DNA of 41,896 nt, taken from Bacteroidota bacterium. GTDB taxonomy: Bacteria; Bacteroidota; Ignavibacteria; UBA10030; UBA8401. Below are positions 302 through 20,187 of this stretch, one piece after another. The stretch covers positions 1 to 41,896 of the forward strand of contig JABWAK010000014.1 in NCBI GenBank assembly GCA_013361065.1, written 5' to 3'. The notes below the pieces were generated by a model, which saw only the letters and a program-made list of their open reading frames with translations, did not search any database and had not been told where the DNA came from. A program made the translations under genes and the position numbers. The stretch's first letter is position 1. Each line of letters begins with the position of its first letter.

Positions 302-1576
302 TTATTTCTTCGGTTTCAGCCGCTCGAACTCGTTGACGTTGCGTTTCTGAGCCTCTTCGATGGGATTGATCCCCTTCCGCTGAGCAGCCGCCGCCACCCG
401 TTCCTCGATCGTCGGGATGATATCCGCTTTGATCAGGATGATGAGTTCGCGGGTGATCTCGGAGGTCTGATCGAATCCGAAGATGTACTTCAGACCGAAG
501 ACCCACCACGGAAGGTCCTTCAGGATCGGGATACCGCCGCGCGTCACTTCCTCGCTGGTGAAGTACAGACCGCCGATGACGGTCTCTTCACCGTCGAAGA
601 GCACGGAATAGGTCGACGCGGTGGTCTTGGCGATACTCCCGTCCGCCTGTGCGGAACTGTTCTCCGCCATCACTTCCAGATTGATGAACTTGATCCCCTG
701 CTCCTCGTACACGGTCGGCTTCACATTGATGATGATACCGGACGAGATGGCGGTCTTGATCACGTTCCCGGAGAAGTCCTTCGTATCGATATAGATATCA
801 TTGCCGACCTGGATGCGGCCCGGCTTGCCGGAGGAGACGGTCACCGACGGATTGGCGAGCACATCACCAAGACCGGTGCTGGAGAAGAACGACATGAGCG
901 CGGAGATGTTGGCGAAGGCATTCTTCGGTGCAAAGCTGGCCAGGAATCCGACCGCCGTGTTCTGGCTCCCCCCGCCCCCGCCGGTGGTGGTGGTGTTCGG
1001 GTCCTTCACACCGCCGAAGAACTGTCCGCCGAACTTGGTCGTATCGGCTGATTTGTCGCCGTAGAGGAAATTCCAGTTGATGCCGGCATTGAGGGATTTC
1101 TGGACGTTCACGCTGAAGAAGATGGAGGAGATCTTGACGTCCCGCTGCTGCATCAGGAACTTGCCGGTGGTATCGGCAGCGGCCTTCGGCACCATGCCGG
1201 TGCCCGACGAGGTCATGGTCTTCCCGGAGGAATCCTTCACGGCATAGACATAGAAGAACTCCTCACGCTCATCGTACCACATGCCGTTCGTCTTCAGGAT
1301 GTTCTCGAACGCTGCATACCAATAGGTGTTCTCCACATCGACGCCGATCGGCTTCTTGTTACTGCTCACGTCGACGATGATCTTGTTCATGTACTTCTTG
1401 CTGAAGTCGCTGAACAGCAGCATCGCCTTGTCGAACGGCAGCGATTTGGAGATCGAGACGAGCTCTTCCGGCGAGACGTACTCGTTCAGATACATCCGCT
1501 TCTCGCGGTTGGTCTGCGCCGATGCGGCTGCCGCGAGCATCAGGATGCACAGGATGATAGGCAGGATACGGTTCAT
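302..1576 (-). CDS. pilQ: Type IV pilus secretin (PilQ/GspD family), short form
   Basis: Signal peptide; secretin-domain features (VLANPSVTVSSGKPGRIQVGNDI, GIIINVKPTV, LFDGEETVIGGLYFTSEEVTRGGIPILKDLPWWVFGLKYIFG, ELIILIKADII); in a T4P operon. Confidence 0.85.
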   Translation of the reverse strand: MNRILPIILCILMLAAAASAQTNREKRMYLNEYVSPEELVSISKSLPFDKAMLLFSDFSKKYMNKIIVDVSSNKKPIGVDVENTYWYAAFENILKTNGMWYDEREEFFYVYAVKDSSGKTMTSSGTGMVPKAAADTTGKFLMQQRDVKISSIFFSVNVQKSLNAGINWNFLYGDKSADTTKFGGQFFGGVKDPNTTTTGGGGGSQNTAVGFLASFAPKNAFANISALMSFFSSTGLGDVLANPSVTVSSGKPGRIQVGNDIYIDTKDFSGNVIKTAISSGIIINVKPTVYEEQGIKFINLEVMAENSSAQADGSIAKTTASTYSVLFDGEETVIGGLYFTSEEVTRGGIPILKDLPWWVFGLKYIFGFDQTSEITRELIILIKADIIPTIEERVAAAAQRKGINPIEEAQKRNVNEFERLKPKK

Positions 1577-2475
1577 TGGAGGTCGTCCTTCTCTGAATTC
1601 TCGAATTGAATGGTCAGGCGCTTGGTCCGCTGGATCCCTCCGTCGTTCAACACGAACTCCACCACGCCTTCCCGCGGAATGATATTGGTCACTTTACCGA
1701 GGAAGACCTCGTCCCCCACCTGCAGCGTGATCAGCTTCCCTTCTTCGTTCATCACCAGCGCTTTGCCGTTGGCGGTCGCCTTCAGCGATACACGGTCCAC
1801 ATCGACGAGCTTCCGGGGGTTGGCCGGGGTCCGCTGGAGGATGCTGGGCTGGAACGGATTGGACATGATCGGCTGCGGCGCAGAATCGGGACGCATCACC
1901 GGCATGCCAAGGGTCGCTTCGCTGGTGAAGTAGGCCTCGATGTCCATATCGTACTGCAGACTGATCTGCGGGCGCTCCAGCGAATCGGCGCCGGTCTCGC
2001 TGCTGACCAGGACCAGATTCCTGATCTTGTACAGCTTCCGTCCGTTCTCGAGCAGCCAGATGAACCGGAAGATGTTCGGGAACTCCGATGTCCCGGTGAT
2101 CTTGTAGGTGTTGTAGCCGATGGTCCCTTCGTTCTTGGTACCGGTGAGTGCCAGGTTCATCTTCAGCTGCTGTGCACCGCTCTCGTCGATGATGTCGCTC
2201 AGGTAGCCGTACGTCTGCGATGAGACATCGGAGGCGGAGATCTCCTTCACGCGGTTGTTCCACCGGTGGAGGGTTTCCCGCAGTTTCGCCTGGTTCTCCT
2301 CGATGGCCGCCAGCTGTGCCGTGTTGTCCTGCAACTGCGCTTCGATCTTCTTGGCTTCCTTCAGGTTCGCCGCGATCTTGTTCGGCTGATAGAACATGGT
2401 GATGTATCCCCCGAAGAGGGAGACGACGAGGATGATCACCGCCAGTGCTATGGTATTTCGAAGTTTATAGGACAC
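1573..2475 (-). CDS. Type IV pilus alignment protein, PilO-like with C-terminal PilP-like domain
   Basis: N-terminal TM, coiled coil, PilO-like region, then PilP-like segment KALVMNEEGKLITLQVGDEVFLGKVTNIIPREGVVEFVLNDGG; between the secretin and PilM/N genes. Confidence 0.7.
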   Translation of the reverse strand: MSYKLRNTIALAVIILVVSLFGGYITMFYQPNKIAANLKEAKKIEAQLQDNTAQLAAIEENQAKLRETLHRWNNRVKEISASDVSSQTYGYLSDIIDESGAQQLKMNLALTGTKNEGTIGYNTYKITGTSEFPNIFRFIWLLENGRKLYKIRNLVLVSSETGADSLERPQISLQYDMDIEAYFTSEATLGMPVMRPDSAPQPIMSNPFQPSILQRTPANPRKLVDVDRVSLKATANGKALVMNEEGKLITLQVGDEVFLGKVTNIIPREGVVEFVLNDGGIQRTKRLTIQFENSEKDDLQ

Positions 2476-2483
2476 GGTGCTCC

Positions 2484-4043
2484 TTACTCATCCTTGACCT
2501 GGGAATGGACCACCAGATTGAATCGGTACACATCCTTCCCGCGGATGTTCTCGATGTCCACCGCCTGCAGCGTAGCATTCTCGAACATGTTGGCAATGCG
2601 CGGGATGCGCTGTCGGTAGACCGTGTACCCGGTGAGGTTCATGGAGGTATCACCGCGGGCGGAGATATCCTTGATCCAGACCGCATTGACGCTCTCCATC
2701 GTCCCGGTGAGATGGTTGAACATCTTGCTCCACCGGTTGTAATTCGGCATCAGCTGGTCGTAAACCTTCAGTGCCGACTCATACTGTGCGTTCCGGGCGA
2801 TCAGATCGTCCAGGATCCCCTGGAGCCGCTGGTTCTCGGCGAGTTTCTCCTGCTTCTTCTGCAGGTCCGCACGGGAGCGGCGGACATCATCGTTCAGTTC
2901 GGCGAACCGCGACGTGAAGAAGAAGGTGACGCCGAAGATCACCAGGAGCAGCAGGTACCCGTGCCATGCCAGCTTGAAGACCTTCTGGCCTTCACGGTAG
3001 CTGGTCGGGAGCAGGTCGATGTCGTAATACCGTTTGTTCTTCGGTTCCAGCGCCCGCATCGCCGATGCGATCGGGATGGCGTATTCAGAGATGATCGTCT
3101 CGGGATTGTCCTGGAATTCGGACATGTCCAGCGTCGGCGAGACGAGGTACTCGATCGGTGCTTCCGCGAACTGCGGTGCAAGGAACTGTTTCAGGTCGAT
3201 CTTCACTGCTTCGCCCGCCAGGAAGATCCGGTCGATCCGCACGATGCCGGCACTGTCCTGTTCGAGCAGGATACGGGAATAGATGGTGTTCTCGATGTTC
3301 GGCGTGAGCCGCCCTTCACTGATCACCGGCGCGAAATGGAAGAAGAACTCCCCTTTCATGAAGATCAGGCGGCTGAACTCGGTACCGACATAGACGATGA
3401 TGGAGACCTCGGACTCGCCCAATTCATAATTGGTCCGGACCATGTTCATCAGGGAGATATCGGAGGTCTCGACGAACTGGAGTTTCGGGGTCCGTTTGCC
3501 GAGGAAATCCCGCACACTGTCGATCAGGTCCAGCAGACCGAGCCCGTCCTCACGGATCACCGACAGGATCTGTCCTTCGGCGGCCGGGATATAGGAGAGG
3601 GAGTCGATGGTGGGCTTCACGGAGCGGGTGGCCGCGAGTTCATCGACCAGCTTTTTCTTCAGCTTCATCCCGGACAGGCCGAAATTATCCTCGAATTGCT
3701 GGTAATAGATGCTCGGTTCGGAGATGGAATAGACCAGTTTATAGGCGGAGGTCGGGTACTCGGCAAGAAGACCGATGATCACCTCGCTGTTGGAGGCGCC
3801 GCCGCTCGCTTCGGCGAACTCGTCCTTCACCCCGCTCGCTTCCAGCGAATCCATCATATCGAAGCTGTCGGAACCACCGTCCGCGCCGGCGACCCGCTCC
3901 TCGAGACGCTTCACCAGATTCACCGTGCGGACATCGTGGAGCGTGATGCGCTTGTTCTTCAGCGCCAAATGGACGAACTTGACATCCAAGCCGTCCACGA
4001 AAATCCCGAGTATCGTTTTGCCTTCGCCTTTGGTGTATGGCAT
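2484..4043 (-). CDS. Type IV pilus PilM-PilN fusion-like protein
   Basis: N-terminal actin-like PilM-type region (ILGIFVDGLDVKFVHLAL; SIIVYVGTEFSRLIFMKGEFFF), then YYDIDLLPTSYR (cf. PilN INLLP) directly before a TM, coiled coil and PilN-like C-terminus. Confidence 0.72.
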   Translation of the reverse strand: MPYTKGEGKTILGIFVDGLDVKFVHLALKNKRITLHDVRTVNLVKRLEERVAGADGGSDSFDMMDSLEASGVKDEFAEASGGASNSEVIIGLLAEYPTSAYKLVYSISEPSIYYQQFEDNFGLSGMKLKKKLVDELAATRSVKPTIDSLSYIPAAEGQILSVIREDGLGLLDLIDSVRDFLGKRTPKLQFVETSDISLMNMVRTNYELGESEVSIIVYVGTEFSRLIFMKGEFFFHFAPVISEGRLTPNIENTIYSRILLEQDSAGIVRIDRIFLAGEAVKIDLKQFLAPQFAEAPIEYLVSPTLDMSEFQDNPETIISEYAIPIASAMRALEPKNKRYYDIDLLPTSYREGQKVFKLAWHGYLLLLVIFGVTFFFTSRFAELNDDVRRSRADLQKKQEKLAENQRLQGILDDLIARNAQYESALKVYDQLMPNYNRWSKMFNHLTGTMESVNAVWIKDISARGDTSMNLTGYTVYRQRIPRIANMFENATLQAVDIENIRGKDVYRFNLVVHSQVKDE

Positions 4044-4047
4044 ACCG

Positions 4048-5307
4048 TCACGTATTGATGATCTGCTGCATGCGTTTCTTGTTGTTTGCGTAGTTCATCG
4101 CATTCTCCATGGAGATCTTCTTCTGCTGATAGAGACGCTTCAGGTCCTGCTCCATCGTCTGCATCCCGATCTCCCCCGACTCCTGGATCATCTGATAGAT
4201 CTCCCCCGTATTCCCGTTCTTGATGGCGGCACGGACCGACGGGTTCATGATCATGATCTCCCGTGCGGCGACCCGTTTGCCGTCCAGCGACGGGATGAGT
4301 TTCTGGGACAGCACCATCTTGCAGACGTCGGCGAACCGCATCCGCACCCGGTCCTGCTCCACATGCGGCACTTCGCCGATGATACGGTCGATACTCTCCA
4401 CCGCCGAGGCGGTATGCAGTGTGGAGAACACTTTATGACCGCTGTCGGTGATCTCCAGACCGGTCATGATGGTCTCTGGATCGCGCATCTCACCGATCAT
4501 GATGATATCCGGGTCCTGCCGCAGCGCCTGGATCGCACCGTCCTTGAACGACAGTACATCGCGGCCCACCTCGCGGTGCCGGACGATACACCGGTCGGAA
4601 CGGTGCACATATTCCACGGGGGAAGCGACGATACAGATATGTCCATCCACCGTATGGTTGTTCAGATCGATCATCGCGTCCAGTGTGGTGCTCTTTCCGG
4701 AACCGGTGATACCGGTGATCAGGATGAGCCCTTCCTTGGTGTGCGCGAGACTGACGATCTTCGTAACGTTCGGATGCAGTTCCAGTGATTTGTACGGACG
4801 CACAGTGGCATTGATGGCGCGCATGTTCAATGCCAGCTGATCGAGGTCCATGTACGCATCGGCGCGGTACCGGTTCATCTTATCGCCGTCCACCACCATG
4901 TAGGAGAAGTCAAGATTCTTCATCTCATACAGGAACTGCCGCTGACGGGCGGAGATGAGCGACTGGATGAGGATGTTGGTCTCATCCACAGAGAGGGACT
5001 CGAGTGTCGGATCGGGTTTCTTGGCACCGAAGATACGGTACCACACTTTGCCGTGCCCGCCGAAGCCGCCGAAATCGATGTCCGACGCATTGATGAGTGA
5101 CATCCGGAGCAGCAGGCATTCCACGAAACTCTTCAACGCATGCTTATGTTCGAGCGGGAGCTTCTCGACGAAATCACCAATGAAGATCTGCCGTTCAAGT
5201 CCCTGTGTAGACGACGGTATCTGCGCGATCACCTGACCGAGGATGGTCTTTGCACCGGAAACGATCTCCGCCGGGATGACCAGGGACGCAGTGGGGATTA
5301 CAGGCAT
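4048..5307 (-). CDS. PilT-like retraction ATPase with divergent Asp box
   Basis: Walker A GITGSGKSTT, Walker B IIMIGEMRD, His box GHKVFSTLHT, C-terminal GMQTMEQDLKRLYQQKKISMENAMNYANN as in PilT; Asp box reads IVASPVEYVH. Confidence 0.85.
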   Translation of the reverse strand: MPVIPTASLVIPAEIVSGAKTILGQVIAQIPSSTQGLERQIFIGDFVEKLPLEHKHALKSFVECLLLRMSLINASDIDFGGFGGHGKVWYRIFGAKKPDPTLESLSVDETNILIQSLISARQRQFLYEMKNLDFSYMVVDGDKMNRYRADAYMDLDQLALNMRAINATVRPYKSLELHPNVTKIVSLAHTKEGLILITGITGSGKSTTLDAMIDLNNHTVDGHICIVASPVEYVHRSDRCIVRHREVGRDVLSFKDGAIQALRQDPDIIMIGEMRDPETIMTGLEITDSGHKVFSTLHTASAVESIDRIIGEVPHVEQDRVRMRFADVCKMVLSQKLIPSLDGKRVAAREIMIMNPSVRAAIKNGNTGEIYQMIQESGEIGMQTMEQDLKRLYQQKKISMENAMNYANNKKRMQQIINT

Positions 5308-5442: not shown

Positions 5443-6678
5443 TTATTCAAACCAGGAGAGTACTTCGAACGAATTATTGACCGTTGGATTTGGGAAGTCC
5501 TCAGGAGGATCATCTTCGAACCGATTATCGTATTTCATGTAGAATTTGGCACCTTTTGTCGCACCGGTACCGAAATCGGTGGAATTGATCTCCCGTGTAA
5601 TGAGGGATCCGACAATCTTCAATTGTTTGGATGGATTGGTATTTGCCAATGTACCGCCAAGGGTCGCTTTTGTATTGGTAAAATAGGCTCCATCCATTCG
5701 GATGGGAAGCGTATTGATCGTGATATCGCCGGCACTGACCAGGCCGAGTTTATCAGTAGAAGAAGGATTGGTCAACGGATCGGTGTTGTATTGAAGATTT
5801 CCATCGATATACGTGGCCCCTACCGTAGAGGTCGGAGTTGTGCTGGAGGGGGATACTGTGGATGTGATGGTCACTTCCCCTTTCACAGTGCCCTGTACGT
5901 GTAACGCACCGTTGACAATAGCGATCTTCCCGTTCGGCGCGAAAGTGGTGATGTTGACCGGAGCCCCCCAGGCTGCTCCGGAATTGGTCTTATACTCCAC
6001 CATTCCCACACCGGCAACGACGGAGAATCTCAACCACATCTCTCCGCCCACCTTATAATTATTCGTTCCGCCGCTGGTCGATGCATCGGATGCAATGGAG
6101 GCGGCATTGGAGGAATAGGATGGGAATGAGACGTTCACACCTTCCTGGTATCCGCCAAGGAACGTGGGAGTACCAGAGGTTGTCTGAAGGGAACCCATCG
6201 TCGCCTTCCCTGTAAAAACGGGGTTCCCTTGGGTAACGAGTTTATTATTGAAATGGATCGGTCCGTCGACCGTATCACCGGAACGGAGTTTTGCTGCGGC
6301 AGAGACATTCCCGCTGTACATCGCGAATTTAGCGATGGAACTCGGACTGAGCAGGATACGGACGACATGGGTGTCCTGCTGGAAGATACCGGTGGAGGTC
6401 AGCAGGACCTTGCCAACATACGTCGTGGTATCAACGGTCACGGTGAACCGGCCATCATTCATCGCGACATTGGTGAAACCGGTGCGCCAATTGCTGTTCA
6501 TGAAGATCTGATTGCACGCCAGATTCGCACCGGCCTCGGCGATATTGTACGTCTGCGTCGATTCGTAATAATCGATCGCATTGGAGAAGGCCTCCGTCCC
6601 GCTGTCGCTCATCGTCTTCCCGAAGAACAGGAAGATGAAGGTCATCCCCATCACCATATAGATCGCCGATCGTCCCAT
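5443..6678 (-). CDS. Pilus-associated minor pilin-like protein (PilX-like position; large repetitive beta-rich C-terminal region)
   Basis: Starts MGRSAIYMVMGMTFIFLFFG; single N-terminal TM then long Gly/Ser/Thr-rich region; GGAGAGGG ribosome-binding site; in the pilus operon. Confidence 0.6.
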   Translation of the reverse strand: MGRSAIYMVMGMTFIFLFFGKTMSDSGTEAFSNAIDYYESTQTYNIAEAGANLACNQIFMNSNWRTGFTNVAMNDGRFTVTVDTTTYVGKVLLTSTGIFQQDTHVVRILLSPSSIAKFAMYSGNVSAAAKLRSGDTVDGPIHFNNKLVTQGNPVFTGKATMGSLQTTSGTPTFLGGYQEGVNVSFPSYSSNAASIASDASTSGGTNNYKVGGEMWLRFSVVAGVGMVEYKTNSGAAWGAPVNITTFAPNGKIAIVNGALHVQGTVKGEVTITSTVSPSSTTPTSTVGATYIDGNLQYNTDPLTNPSSTDKLGLVSAGDITINTLPIRMDGAYFTNTKATLGGTLANTNPSKQLKIVGSLITREINSTDFGTGATKGAKFYMKYDNRFEDDPPEDFPNPTVNNSFEVLSWFE

Positions 6679-6686
6679 ACCCTCTC

Positions 6687-7331
6687 CTACCGGTTGTTCA
6701 GATTCTTCGCCACCAACCGCACCTGCCGCCAGAAGGCGCTCTGGTAGACGGTATCGTAGGTGGCCGTGTTATAGTACTTCGTCCATTTCACCGGATGCTC
6801 GACCTGGATCGTGATCTGCATGTACTGGATCAGCTGACAACTATCCACCGGTGTGCTCAGTTTGTTGCGTAGCGCATCGTAATACTGCAGATTGAAGGTG
6901 GAGACGCCCATGTAGACACCGATCGGAGTGGCATTGTTCTCCACACGATAGATAAGTCGGTCGTTCGGATTCGGTGTAGAGGTGAGTTCGGAGGTCGGTC
7001 CGATGTAATAGGTGAGCGAATCGAGCACTCCGTCCCCGTACGGATTGGCAACGGTCGGAAGATCGGTCCAGAAGATGATCTTGGAGGTATCGGCATACCG
7101 GATAGCGAGCGTCGGCGAACTGATCACTTCGTAATCCTTGCAGTACGCGATCTTGCGGAAGTCATGTTCCAGCAGTTCGGAGACCGCGACCAGGTTCTGC
7201 TGCACGATCAGGTCCTCACGGAACGCGGACATGTTCTCCATCGTACTGCCGTTCAGGCGGAGCGCGATGAGCATCAGCGTCCCGAAGACGATGGTCGAAG
7301 CGATGAGATCCAGTATGGTCTGTGAGCCCAT
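6687..7331 (-). CDS. Minor pilin-like protein (PilW-like)
   Basis: Starts MGSQTILDLIASTIVFGTLMLIALRLNG; single N-terminal hydrophobic helix; AAGGA upstream; operonic. Confidence 0.6.
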   Translation of the reverse strand: MGSQTILDLIASTIVFGTLMLIALRLNGSTMENMSAFREDLIVQQNLVAVSELLEHDFRKIAYCKDYEVISSPTLAIRYADTSKIIFWTDLPTVANPYGDGVLDSLTYYIGPTSELTSTPNPNDRLIYRVENNATPIGVYMGVSTFNLQYYDALRNKLSTPVDSCQLIQYMQITIQVEHPVKWTKYYNTATYDTVYQSAFWRQVRLVAKNLNNR

Positions 7332-7342
7332 GGGAACGGTCC

Positions 7343-7879
7343 TTACCGGAAGTACCAGTAACTGAAGATGGAGCGGAACTTCAATGTATCCTGCACCGGA
7401 ACATCGAGGGAGTAATCCATCATATACGGGCTCGTCACGTAGACGGTGATCATCTTGTTGAACGACTTCGACGTGGTCGTGGTGAACGACGTCGGCGGCG
7501 TGACCGTCAGGTAATCGATACGTGCCGTGGTATAGAAGATCGCGGAGTTCGGGATGGTATCGATCTTCACATAATTATGGTAATCGTCCACATCATCGAA
7601 CAGAAGGTAATTGGTCTCCCCCGTTTCGGCGCCAAAGCTGGCGGAAGCGGTCAGCGAAGAGACCTGCGTGGAGGTCAGGAACGTATCGACGGTTGCCTCA
7701 TCGAAGGCGAGGTCATGGGCATACTCCAGCATGGATGTGCCGAGCGAGGTCGCCGTGATGCGGTACTCGGCGACATCCTTCGTCGAACCGACCTCGAGGA
7801 CGGTCCGGTTGACGGTGAGGATCAACCGTCCCATCAGCATGAGTGCCATGATGGTCAATAATGTCTGCCCGAGTCCCAT
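7343..7879 (-). CDS. Minor pilin-like protein (PilV-like)
   Basis: Starts MGLGQTLLTIMALMLMGRLILTVNRTVLEV; N-terminal hydrophobic helix; AGGA upstream; operonic. Confidence 0.58.
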   Translation of the reverse strand: MGLGQTLLTIMALMLMGRLILTVNRTVLEVGSTKDVAEYRITATSLGTSMLEYAHDLAFDEATVDTFLTSTQVSSLTASASFGAETGETNYLLFDDVDDYHNYVKIDTIPNSAIFYTTARIDYLTVTPPTSFTTTTSKSFNKMITVYVTSPYMMDYSLDVPVQDTLKFRSIFSYWYFR

Positions 7880-7961: not shown

Positions 7962-9749
7962 TCATTCATCTTCCACCGTGGAGGAAACGACCTCTTCGAG
8001 TGACGTCACCCCTTCCTTCATACGCTCCATGCCGGAACGACGTAGAGTCCACATCCCGTCTTTCGCGGCCTGTTCACGGATCGAATTCTCGTCCACTTTC
8101 TCGCCGGCATTCAGCACGATATCCTTGATCGCCTTCGTGAAGTACAAAGCCTCATGGATGGCGGCGCGTCCCTTGTACCCTCCCGAACACTTGTCACAAC
8201 CGACCGCCTTATAGAAGGTATGGGAGCGCAGGTCCTCCTCGGTGAATCCGAACTTGAGCAGGTCGGATTTCTCACTGTCGTCGATCGGCGTCTTGCATAC
8301 CTTGCAGAGCGTACGGATGAGACGCTGCGCCACGATGATGTTGATGGCGTACGCGATCAGGAACGGTTCGATGCCCATCTTATAGAGACGGGCCACGGCG
8401 CTCGGAGCGTCGTTGGTGTGCAGCGTGGAGAACACCAAGTGACCGGTGTTCGCCAGCTTGATGGCGGTCTCGGCCGTTACCTTATCGCGCATTTCACCGA
8501 CGAGCACGATGTCCGGATCATGGCGCAGGATACCGCGGATCGACTGTTCGAACGACATCTTCGGACCGATCTTCAGCTGCCGCGCCCCTTTGATGATGTA
8601 TTCCACCGGTTCTTCGATGGTGAGCACGTTCACGGTCGGATCGATCACCTGGTACAGTGCAGCGATCAGCGTGGTCGACTTACCGGACCCTGTCGGACCG
8701 GTGAGGATGACGATACCCTGCGGTTTCTCGATCGCCTTGTAGAAGAATCCCTTCGCCGGCCCCTGGAGACCGAGTTTGTTCAGATCGGTGATCACCTTCC
8801 GGTCATCGAGAACGCGGATGACGACCGATTCGAACTTGTTCTTGAACTCCGTGGTGACGATCGGCATGATGGAGACGCGGAACCGGAGCTGGTGCCCGTC
8901 CACGACGCGCTGGATGAAACCGTCCTGCGACATCTCGCGTTCGAACCGGTCGACGTTCTTGGTGCGGTCCTTGATCACCGCCATCACCGCTTCGGGCATC
9001 GTGTTCTCCTGGCAGTGCCAGAGCTTCAGATTACCGTCCACGCGGAACATAAAATTGGTCCTCTTCCCTTCGGCCGCCACGATGTGCACGTCGCTCACGC
9101 CGGTCCGCACGGCTTCCACCAGCGCACCTTCGAACAGGTTCGCCAGGGCGCTCTTGTTGATCTCGGCATTGAGCGCATCCTCATCGACATTCGCCTCCTC
9201 CTCGCCGGTCTCGACGCTGATCTGATTGTCCTCGAGGAGCTTCAGGAACTCGTTCTGCGGCGGGATGACCTGTTCCGTGAGGCTCTGGATGTCCTTCAAA
9301 CGGCAGTAGGTGACCTCGTACTTCTTCACATTGAAGTTACGGGCGATGAGCGGGATGTTCCGGTCGGTCGGATCGGCGGAGATGATGATGAGCTTGTCCG
9401 GCTGTTTCTCATCGAACTTCAGCGGGATCATCTTCGTCTGCACCATCAGTTCCTTGTTCCCTTCCGGCAGGGCATCGACGAGCTTCCGGATGAAATCGAT
9501 GCGGGACTTCTCGATGTTCTCATCGGCGATGTAGATCTCACGGAACGCGTACAGGTTGGCCACCTCACGGAAGACCGCATCATGGTCCGCACTGAAATCC
9601 GTGACGAGGATCTGTCCAAGGTTCCGCCGTTCCTTCTTGGTCGCTTCGGCCTCCTTGATCCTCAGGGATTTCTCCAGGGTCTCATAGTCGATGATCCCCT
9701 TCTTGAGGAGCGTATATCCGATCTTATCCGTGATGTCGATATCGGCCAT
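7962..9749 (-). CDS. pilB: Type IV pilus extension ATPase PilB/GspE
   Basis: N-terminal GspE-like domain; GPTGSGKSTT; TIEEPVEYI; IVLVGEMRD; GHLVFSTLHTNDA; zinc motif CKVCK...CDKC. Confidence 0.93.
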   Translation of the reverse strand: MADIDITDKIGYTLLKKGIIDYETLEKSLRIKEAEATKKERRNLGQILVTDFSADHDAVFREVANLYAFREIYIADENIEKSRIDFIRKLVDALPEGNKELMVQTKMIPLKFDEKQPDKLIIISADPTDRNIPLIARNFNVKKYEVTYCRLKDIQSLTEQVIPPQNEFLKLLEDNQISVETGEEEANVDEDALNAEINKSALANLFEGALVEAVRTGVSDVHIVAAEGKRTNFMFRVDGNLKLWHCQENTMPEAVMAVIKDRTKNVDRFEREMSQDGFIQRVVDGHQLRFRVSIMPIVTTEFKNKFESVVIRVLDDRKVITDLNKLGLQGPAKGFFYKAIEKPQGIVILTGPTGSGKSTTLIAALYQVIDPTVNVLTIEEPVEYIIKGARQLKIGPKMSFEQSIRGILRHDPDIVLVGEMRDKVTAETAIKLANTGHLVFSTLHTNDAPSAVARLYKMGIEPFLIAYAINIIVAQRLIRTLCKVCKTPIDDSEKSDLLKFGFTEEDLRSHTFYKAVGCDKCSGGYKGRAAIHEALYFTKAIKDIVLNAGEKVDENSIREQAAKDGMWTLRRSGMERMKEGVTSLEEVVSSTVEDE

Positions 9750-9770
9750 AGCTGGTCCTTTGCCGGGTCC

Positions 9771-17703: not shown

Positions 17704-20187
17704 TCACCGACCGGTGATCTCCCTGATCGCATCCGAGATGTGCGGTGAACCGGGAAGATACTGCTGAGCGAGGGTGAGGATCTTCAGCGCGGGATAGGTG
17801 CGGCGACGTTCCCGATAAAGTGATGACAGAACGAGAACAGCAGATTCCCGGTCCGGCTGCAGCATCACTGCCCGGCGGAGCGATGCGATCCGGGCATCGG
17901 ACAGACCGAGCCGTTCGTACGCTGCCGCCATCCGTTCCTGGATGCCGGCCTGCTGCTCAGCTGTGCGGGCCTGCCTCCCTTCGTCGATCAGGCTGAAGAG
18001 CTCGCCGAACGGAGCAATGGATGGTTCTCCCGGGAAGGAGCGCTGCAGCACGGTAAAGGCTCCCCGGGCATTCACCGTATCCCCGATCTGGAGTGAGAAA
18101 TGGATGAAGAGATTGTAAGCAGGGATATATGACCGTTGCTGCATGACAGCAGCATTCAGGAAGCGCAAGGCGGTTGTCCGCATATCCAGTTCCCAATAAT
18201 TCACGGCCAGATTGAACAGGATGTCTGCCCGTTGCGCCGAATCGGAGGTCCGCTGCAATGCCGTCAGCTGATCGAGCATCGTGGCGTGGAATCCTGCTTT
18301 CTGTGCATATCCGATCCCCTGCGGCATCCCCTGCAGTGTGGCAAAGAGCAACCGGGCGGAATCAAGGGAGCCAAGGCATTCCAGCGTTACGGCATGATAA
18401 TATCGGAACAACGGATGGACCTCCGCCAACCTCTGTTCCGCTCGGAAGAAACGCTCGAGCTGCCGGAAATCACCATTGTCCACCAGATGTGCAAGGGTCT
18501 GCACTGCACCGGCGGACCGAAGTGCCGGTCTCCCGCTCTCCGCCTGCCGTACAGCGAAGATATCGAAGCCTCCTGCACTTCCCTGCTGTTCGAACGAGTA
18601 TGTCCGGCTCAGTCCCATCAGCAGATCGAATTCGCGGACTCCGGCGCGGTCCCGTGACGAAACGATGTACCGGACATCATAGTCCCGGATCATCTGCTCG
18701 AACGCCGATAGGCCGGAGAACTCATTCATCAGCAGCACCTTGGTCCCGGGCAGCACGATGCCGAACTCCTTCCGTTTGGCGATGATCACGTCCGGCTGCA
18801 GACCGCGTTTGATGAACCACTCTGCCGCCAATGGGAAGGATGTTGCGAACTCCGTCGGTACGGACGCAGAGGAACGGTCGAACTGCTCCGTTGATGTTGA
18901 TGCCGATCGATAGGCCGAAGCACGACCGATCATCTCTGCCGTCCACAGCAGATTCGGCAGCATCAGAAACAATGCAGCCGCAATGACGATACGCTTCATG
19001 AGGATATTCCGGCCCGTCATGAACGCATCCACACCCTGTGCCGCCAGAATGAGCAGGATCAGAAGCAACGGATAGGTGAAACGGATATCGGCAACAGGAT
19101 AGAGCAGCACCATGACGCTGTAGAAGATGATGAAGAGTGAATATATAGGAGCAAGCCGGCCATTTCGGAATTCTCTGATCATCCCGGTGACCACCGAACC
19201 TGCAGCGAGCACAGCGGCGATGATGAACCTGGGAGCCACGATCCGCTGCGCCGCCGTTATCATCAGAGAGGACCGGTCCACCACGCTATAGAATGTCGGC
19301 CGCACCTCTCCATCCAGACCGAACTGAGGATAGTGGAACAATCCCGGCAGTTCGCGGAGATAGAATGCTGCATTCACCGTGATCCGTGCGACGATCTCCT
19401 GCAGGAACGCTGTCCGGCCCGATGTGAGGATGTTGCTCCCGAACAGCAGAGAATTCCGGAGGTCCGGTTGTTCACGGCCTGCCACGATGATCTCATTGCG
19501 GACGTACCATGCACCGAACACCAGCACGATCCCGACGAAGGTCCATCCTGCCATATCATACTTCCGGTGCAGCACAAGGAACAGAAGCACAACAGGGACA
19601 AGGACGATACCGATCTCCCGGGTCAGCACCGATGCAGCAAGCACTACAGTCAACCATACCATGGTTGCTGTGTCAGCGGCTCCTTCATTCCCGACACGGG
19701 ACATCAGGGAGAACAGCACGATCAGCAGCAGCAGGAAGAGCGGCTCTGAGAGCAGCTGTGTGGAATAATGCAGTGTGAAGGGATGGAATGCCAGTAATGC
19801 AAGTGCGATCCCGGCTGGCACTGCTGATACCTTCCCTTTCACGAACCGGTGGAACAGAAGGAGCATCACGGCGGTGATGATCAGGGTACCGAATTTCAAC
19901 GCATAAGGAGTGAGCGGCAGAAGCCACGCGAACGGAGCAATGAGGACAGGATACAGCGGTGCATGAACAACATACCGCGGTGCTTCGGGGTCCGTGGTAT
20001 CCACGAATCCCTCCCCTGCGGCTATGGAACGTGCCCAGATCTCATACCGTGCACTGTCCGGTGTATAGGAACTCGTTTGAGTAACGGAGAACGCTGCGGT
20101 GACGATGAACAGCAGGATAAGGATCGATGCAGCTCGATCGGCAGGATCCCGAAAAGCGTCAGAGAGGGAGCGAACGATGCGGTTCAT
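17704..20187 (-). CDS. GT-C family (GT39/ArnT-like) glycosyltransferase with C-terminal TPR region
   Basis: TPDSARYEIWARSIAAGEGFVDTTDPEAPRYVVHAPLYPVLIAPFAWL, multi-TM core, TPR-like C-terminus. Confidence 0.72.
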   Translation of the reverse strand: MNRIVRSLSDAFRDPADRAASILILLFIVTAAFSVTQTSSYTPDSARYEIWARSIAAGEGFVDTTDPEAPRYVVHAPLYPVLIAPFAWLLPLTPYALKFGTLIITAVMLLLFHRFVKGKVSAVPAGIALALLAFHPFTLHYSTQLLSEPLFLLLLIVLFSLMSRVGNEGAADTATMVWLTVVLAASVLTREIGIVLVPVVLLFLVLHRKYDMAGWTFVGIVLVFGAWYVRNEIIVAGREQPDLRNSLLFGSNILTSGRTAFLQEIVARITVNAAFYLRELPGLFHYPQFGLDGEVRPTFYSVVDRSSLMITAAQRIVAPRFIIAAVLAAGSVVTGMIREFRNGRLAPIYSLFIIFYSVMVLLYPVADIRFTYPLLLILLILAAQGVDAFMTGRNILMKRIVIAAALFLMLPNLLWTAEMIGRASAYRSASTSTEQFDRSSASVPTEFATSFPLAAEWFIKRGLQPDVIIAKRKEFGIVLPGTKVLLMNEFSGLSAFEQMIRDYDVRYIVSSRDRAGVREFDLLMGLSRTYSFEQQGSAGGFDIFAVRQAESGRPALRSAGAVQTLAHLVDNGDFRQLERFFRAEQRLAEVHPLFRYYHAVTLECLGSLDSARLLFATLQGMPQGIGYAQKAGFHATMLDQLTALQRTSDSAQRADILFNLAVNYWELDMRTTALRFLNAAVMQQRSYIPAYNLFIHFSLQIGDTVNARGAFTVLQRSFPGEPSIAPFGELFSLIDEGRQARTAEQQAGIQERMAAAYERLGLSDARIASLRRAVMLQPDRESAVLVLSSLYRERRRTYPALKILTLAQQYLPGSPHISDAIREITGR

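Follow-up and report, generated by a model that had tools for sequence, protein, structure and literature searches.

The Asp box of a PilT-family ATPase encoded in a pilus locus of a Bacteroidota bacterium (Ignavibacteria; assembly GCA_013361065.1) lacks two of its three acidic residues, and this raises the question of whether such a protein is a decayed gene, an inactive ring or a motor that works differently from PilT. The locus lies on contig JABWAK010000014.1, of which positions 1 to 41,896 of the forward strand were analysed (the window, 41,896 nucleotides). The ATPase, which we named PilT2, is encoded by a complete ORF of 419 residues at 4048..5307 on the minus strand, as are all features of the window described below.

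A PilT-family ATPase with an altered Asp box

PilT2 matches T2SSE (PF00437) and scores 319.6 bits against TIGR01420 (PilT/PilU family type 4a pilus ATPase), just above the cut-off of 319.1. Extra N-terminal helices are followed by a PAS-like domain and a RecA core, and among solved structures the predicted one (AlphaFold, pLDDT 92) is most similar to Geobacter PilT, with a TM score of 0.82-0.93 by target length. The protein is like PilT (TIGR01420; 6OJX/6OK2, 2EWV, 3JVV) in its fold, PAS-RecA architecture and Walker A motif, with about 35% identity, and unlike PilT in that it has two extra N-terminal helices, belongs to a separate clade and sits in a different gene neighbourhood.

Minus-strand translation of 4603-4635 gives CIVASPVEYVH and thereby bears out a preliminary description of the sequence, which had reported the Asp box IVASPVEYVH in a complete ORF. 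The box (IVASPVEY, 4609..4632) corresponds to TIEDPIEY in PilT. A228 and S229 take the places of E160 and D161 of Geobacter PilT, and the third acidic residue of E-D-P-x-E is retained as E232, the equivalent of the Mg-contacting E164. The other motifs are as they had been described: Walker A (GITGSGKSTT, 4684..4713, residues 199-208) is intact, Walker B (GEMRD, 4480..4494, residues 272-276) contains the catalytic Glu E273, the His box (GHKVFSTLHT, 4411..4440, residues 290-299) contains both H291 and H298, and SVRAAIKN (4216..4239, residues 357-364) stands in place of AIRNLIRE. The PilB/GspE-type assembly ATPase of the same locus (7962..9749) does keep an intact TIEEPVEY.

The catalytic Glu is retained

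The preliminary description took the lost Glu for the catalytic residue, and on this point the published structures say otherwise. The Asp box of P. aeruginosa PilT is E159-D160-P-I-E163 with E204 as the Walker B Glu, and that of Geobacter PilB (PilB-Gm) is E353-D354-P-V-E357 with E395 in Walker B. The numbering was recounted here from alignments, a 20-residue offset between chain and paper in PilB-Gm being taken as an expression tag, consistent with T327 and E395. McCallum et al. identified the Walker B residues E395 in PilB-Gm and E204 in PilT-Pa as the catalytic Glu, and Mg is contacted by the last Glu of E-D-P-x-E, which is E357 in PilB-Gm and E164 in PilT-Gm (PMC5424180, PMC6858323). Among the residues of the Asp and His boxes of Geobacter PilT only H230 and E164 touch ATP or Mg, and D161-R195 is listed as an inter-chain contact (PMC6858323). 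Since PilT2 has both the Walker B Glu, which is catalytic in the structures, and the Mg-contacting Glu at the end of E-D-P-x-E, the catalytic Glu is not lost; mapping onto PilB-Gm and PilT-Pa numbering ruled out this explanation. The E160/D161 pair that is lost consists of second-shell or interface residues. The inter-chain partner of D161, R195, is represented in PilT2 by R263 (4519..4521).

Loss of E160 is fixed across the family

Orthologs of PilT2 were drawn from 60 relatives, a species-level genome collection, 300 genomes of the phylum Bacteroidota, and the phyla of KSB1, of Marinimicrobia and of Calditrichota with LCP-89. The joint alignment compared 168 PilT2-family rows with 187 other PilT-family rows, where a few genes were fetched twice so that rows slightly overcount genes. 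The preliminary description had proposed to ask if Ala-Ser is conserved among orthologs. At the E160 position the PilT2 family always has a small residue, Ala (115 rows), Gly (41) or Ser (12), and never Glu, which is found in all 187 other rows. The D161 position is occupied by Ser (110), Asp (21), Ala (9), Asn (8), Lys (8), Arg (5), Gln (4) and, in the remainder, other residues. The defining change of the family is the loss of E160, that of D161 being less consistent. D161 is retained mostly in KSB1, where most members (L248-L267) combine it with Gly or Ala in place of E160, and this suggests that E160 was lost first or alone.

The family lacks the E-D-P-x-E Asp box of TIGR01420 proteins and has their Walker A, Walker B GE and His-box histidines. 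Like PilT, it keeps the Mg-contacting Glu (E232), the catalytic Walker B Glu (E273), both His-box histidines and conserved arginines, namely the R195 equivalent (R263) and two in the N-domain (R146 and R148 in the window protein); each of these, as well as the Walker A Lys, is found in 168/168 rows. Unlike in PilT, E160 and usually D161 are replaced, and two charged residues are gained at other positions. D142 on the Walker A helix (D210 in the window protein, 4678..4680; Geobacter PilT numbering) is Asp in every PilT2 row and in none of the 187 others, 180 of which have Ala. Position 224 in the His box (K292 in the window protein) is Lys or Arg in 168/168 PilT2 rows vs Leu in 187/187 others. 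A further difference from PilT is SV[RK]AAI[KR]N in place of AIRNLIRE, with A361 in all 168 rows, and the other PilT2-specific columns include H244, E285, E312, R324, A361, E369, E386, N408 and W89. In the predicted secondary structure of PilT2 one strand ends at A228 and another starts at K292, so that any contact among A228, D210 and K292 would be likelier between chains than within one.

The dN/dS of PilT2 is about 0.03-0.05 in two pairs with unsaturated synonymous sites, in accordance with strong purifying selection, and the Ala and Ser codons of the Asp box turn over synonymously. As the Asp-box change is fixed across all 168 family rows it is not due to chance, sequencing error or local mutation, and fixation together with dN/dS rules out decay. 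With the locus also conserved (see below), the earlier view that PilT2 is a specialised ATPase and not a decayed gene is supported.

PilT2 is an ancient paralog of PilT

In a tree of 86 rows, made by a quick method, the PilT2 family forms one clade on a long stem, which measures 1.82 changes per column and has an SH-aLRT support of 100. The clade lies inside the PilT radiation, away from the PilU-like branch and from the canonical PilT proteins of these phyla. Two features identify a canonical retraction PilT, an AIRNLIRE-type motif and grouping with the canonical PilT of the same phyla, and PilT2 has neither.

A PilT-family match was obtained in 105 of the 300 Bacteroidota genomes, with two or three copies in three of them and one in the rest, and every copy read is without E160. 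No other PilT relative accompanies PilT2 in these genomes, and the copies in the three genomes with more than one are all PilT2. Canonical PilT was not found among the 300 genomes, where every match stayed below the 366-511 bits obtained by canonical copies elsewhere. A second PilT in the genome of the window, which the preliminary description had proposed to look for, was not found either; the remaining T2SSE genes are of the PilB/GspE type or fragments resembling that type. Outside Bacteroidota canonical PilT is also present in all 12 genomes with PilT2 of the Calditrichota/LCP-89 phylum (one copy a fragment), and it coexists with PilT2 in 8 of 17 Marinimicrobia and 5 of 22 KSB1 genomes. The coexistence in other phyla, with none in Bacteroidota, marks PilT2 as an ancient paralog that seems to be the only one retained in Bacteroidota. 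Genomes with the PilT2 system belong to Bacteroidota (as defined by GTDB), Calditrichota/LCP-89, KSB1 and Marinimicrobia.

A conserved pilus-like locus with apparently leaderless pilins

In order of window coordinates, the locus comprises a short secretin (302..1576; profile match to PF00263), a PilO/GspM-like protein whose resemblance to GspM is weak (1573..2475) and a PilM/PilN-like fusion with a weak Amuc_1101 PilM-like match (2484..4043). Beyond PilT2 lie a pilin-like accessory protein starting with MGRSAIYMVMG (5443..6678) and two minor pilin-like proteins, one starting with MGSQTILDLIAS (6687..7331) and the other with MGLGQTLLTIMA and a stop two codons upstream (7343..7879). PilB is followed by a PilC/GspF platform protein (9771..11189) and by two leaderless major pilin-like proteins that both start with MGQQQLLLIILG, the first with a stop five codons upstream (11298..11708 and 11783..12184). 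PilB, PilC, a secretin and pilin-fold subunits, one of the features by which a type IVa pilus system is recognised, are all present. The same pilins, PilC, PilB, minor pilin-like genes, PilT2, PilM-PilN fusion, PilO-like gene and short secretin were found in every lineage with enough flank, and in the examples read the canonical PilT copies of the same or related genomes sit outside the PilT2 locus. The region directly upstream of the pilins (12359-17597 and 17704-20187) encodes four large membrane proteins that are polytopic and in some cases TPR-like towards the C-terminus; as a guess, they could be glycosyltransferases modifying the filament. On contig C225 a second GspE-like ATPase (8408-10102) lies in tandem with a normal one and has lost both His-box histidines (GTMVISTVLASD), with an odd Walker A (GPSSSGKT) and response-regulator-like ORFs flanking the pair. 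C225 was considered as a second pilus locus and rejected, as no pilin-like ORF was recognised there by eye.

The pilin-like subunits of the PilT2 system open directly with MGQQQLLLI(I/V)LG and have no leader peptide; Glu5 is also absent. In 66 of 70 distinct pilin ORFs the start codon comes immediately before that Gly with no alternative start upstream, and the upstream in-frame stops are mostly 1-10 codons away. Such Met-Gly starts were seen in the window at 11298-11708, 11783-12184 and 7343-7879, and also in L037, L041, L042, L043, L045, L047 and L357. A leader of 6-26 residues and a dedicated peptidase are given as defining features in a major review (PMC4471445). The window pilins do not have the leader of 6-26 residues ending in Gly, plus Glu5, by which type IVa pilins are recognised. 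The pilin at 11783..12184 is predicted to form a 53-residue N-terminal helix and four strands, and the four best folds for its model among 350,542 chains are PAK-type pilins, with a probability of 0.93 and a top E of 0.2, which is not significant alone. A prepilin peptidase was searched for in this genome with PF01478 and PF06750, which gave 0 matches here and were positive in the controls, where a divergent peptidase could escape these models; PF01478 also had no match in 94 of the 105 Bacteroidota genomes with PilT2. The genome paper of Melioribacter roseus independently reported pilT, pilQ, pilB and pilC and no pilA or pilD (PMC3534657). Among open-access papers we found no matching report on leaderless pilins or on systems without a prepilin peptidase. 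Judged from their genes, the pilins of the PilT2 system seem to be produced with neither the customary leader nor its processing enzyme.

Discussion

PilT2 retains all known nucleotide, Mg and catalytic residues and is predicted to have the fold of PilT. With a complete nucleotide site, one end of an inter-chain contact among the changed residues and two new charges that became fixed alongside the loss, PilT2 is most economically read as a working ATPase with a different coupling of the ring. Sequence and model comparisons lead us to favour, with some reserve, PilT2 as the second motor ATPase in a type IV filament system of its own kind, a motor that would be active with its subunit coupling rewired and that probably serves in retraction or disassembly. 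PilT2 would still form hexamers and would bind and hydrolyse Mg-ATP. Between subunits, the network of E160/D161 and R195 would be replaced by another using D142 and K224, in which D142 could substitute for E160 and K224 could pair with D142 across the subunit boundary. Neighbouring sites would then be coupled in another way than in PilT, with consequences for speed, processivity or direction, and PilT2 would probably drive disassembly or retraction of the filament assembled by PilB. Weighing against an active motor, all other PilT-type ATPases compared have E160, so that losing it may well lower turnover, and the retraction-linked AIRNLIRE motif is also replaced.

The loss of this Glu, of a conserved Asp and of the retraction motif would also suit a PilT2 that binds ATP and hydrolyses it slowly or not at all. 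Its ring would then regulate PilC, hold it back or serve it as an adaptor, and retraction would be left to PilB or to spontaneous disassembly. That an inactive ring can matter is known from Vibrio, where ATPase-inactive PilT still supports PilU-driven retraction (PMC6762196), and CpaF works in both directions so that one motor could suffice (PMC11300603). PilT2 would share with CpaF of Tad pili the ability to work as a filament motor without canonical PilT, but CpaF is the sole motor of the Tad system whereas PilT2 is accompanied by PilB. We consider this main rival improbable, yet it deserves to be taken seriously. Over this evolutionary depth one would expect some active-site residues of a dead ATPase to have disappeared, and the catalytic, Mg and phosphate-contacting residues that were named in the structural papers and checked are kept in 168/168 rows. 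PilT2 is possibly weakly hydrolysing, as the preliminary description had also suggested. Its other suggestion, a PilU-like protein, would make PilT2 an accessory motor needing another PilT. PilT2 does share with PilU (9N32) the fold and the absence of AIRNLIRE (motif: PMC6762196). We find this reading very unlikely, since PilT2 branches outside the PilU-like proteins and PilU depends on PilT, while canonical PilT is missing from this genome and from the 300 Bacteroidota genomes and, where both occur, lies away from the PilT2 locus in the examples read. PilU is also reported to have all conserved ATPase motifs (PMC13142100).

Rather unlikely, too, is a secretion pseudopilus, with a piston powered or reset by PilT2, instead of a surface pilus. 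The 'T2SS' of Bacteroidetes branches with T4aP, not T2SS, and can have a role in secretion (PMC6668835, PMC5553014), and the PilO of this locus weakly resembles GspM; yet PilT is normally absent from T2SS (PMC6668835), and the locus encodes several major subunits the size of pilins next to PilMN and PilO-like genes. The secretion ATPases DotB and TraJ are the second-best family matches of PilT2 (TIGR02524/02525), and DotB also has an altered AIRNLIRE-like motif and a longer N-terminus, but PilT2 scores far under the cut-offs (143 vs 463 and 143 vs 368 bits) and its gene lies outside any type IV secretion locus. Neutral decay or sequencing error, for which nothing speaks beyond the unusual residues themselves, is hardly credible given fixation in 168 rows over several phyla, purifying selection and intact ORFs.

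The PilT2 family could be part of a separate class of type IV filaments in the FCB group, a proposal that we make tentatively from the sequences. In this class the filament would consist of leaderless pilins, with no prepilin peptidase involved, and PilB would act together with a PilT paralog whose Asp-box acid has virtually shifted to the Walker A helix and whose subunits are coupled differently. The TIGR01420 cut-off is cleared by 48 of the 105 Bacteroidota genomes with PilT2 and splits the family mid-way, so that automatic annotation would call about half of it PilT; retraction is thus silently assumed in a phylum in which no canonical PilT was found. The PilT2 family is a natural experiment on the role of the conserved E-D of the Asp box, which makes no ATP or Mg contact and yet is otherwise almost invariant. 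If the pilins are truly leaderless and no peptidase is involved, the biogenesis of type IV filaments would here do without a step that is regarded as universal, and what pilin processing contributes would become directly testable.
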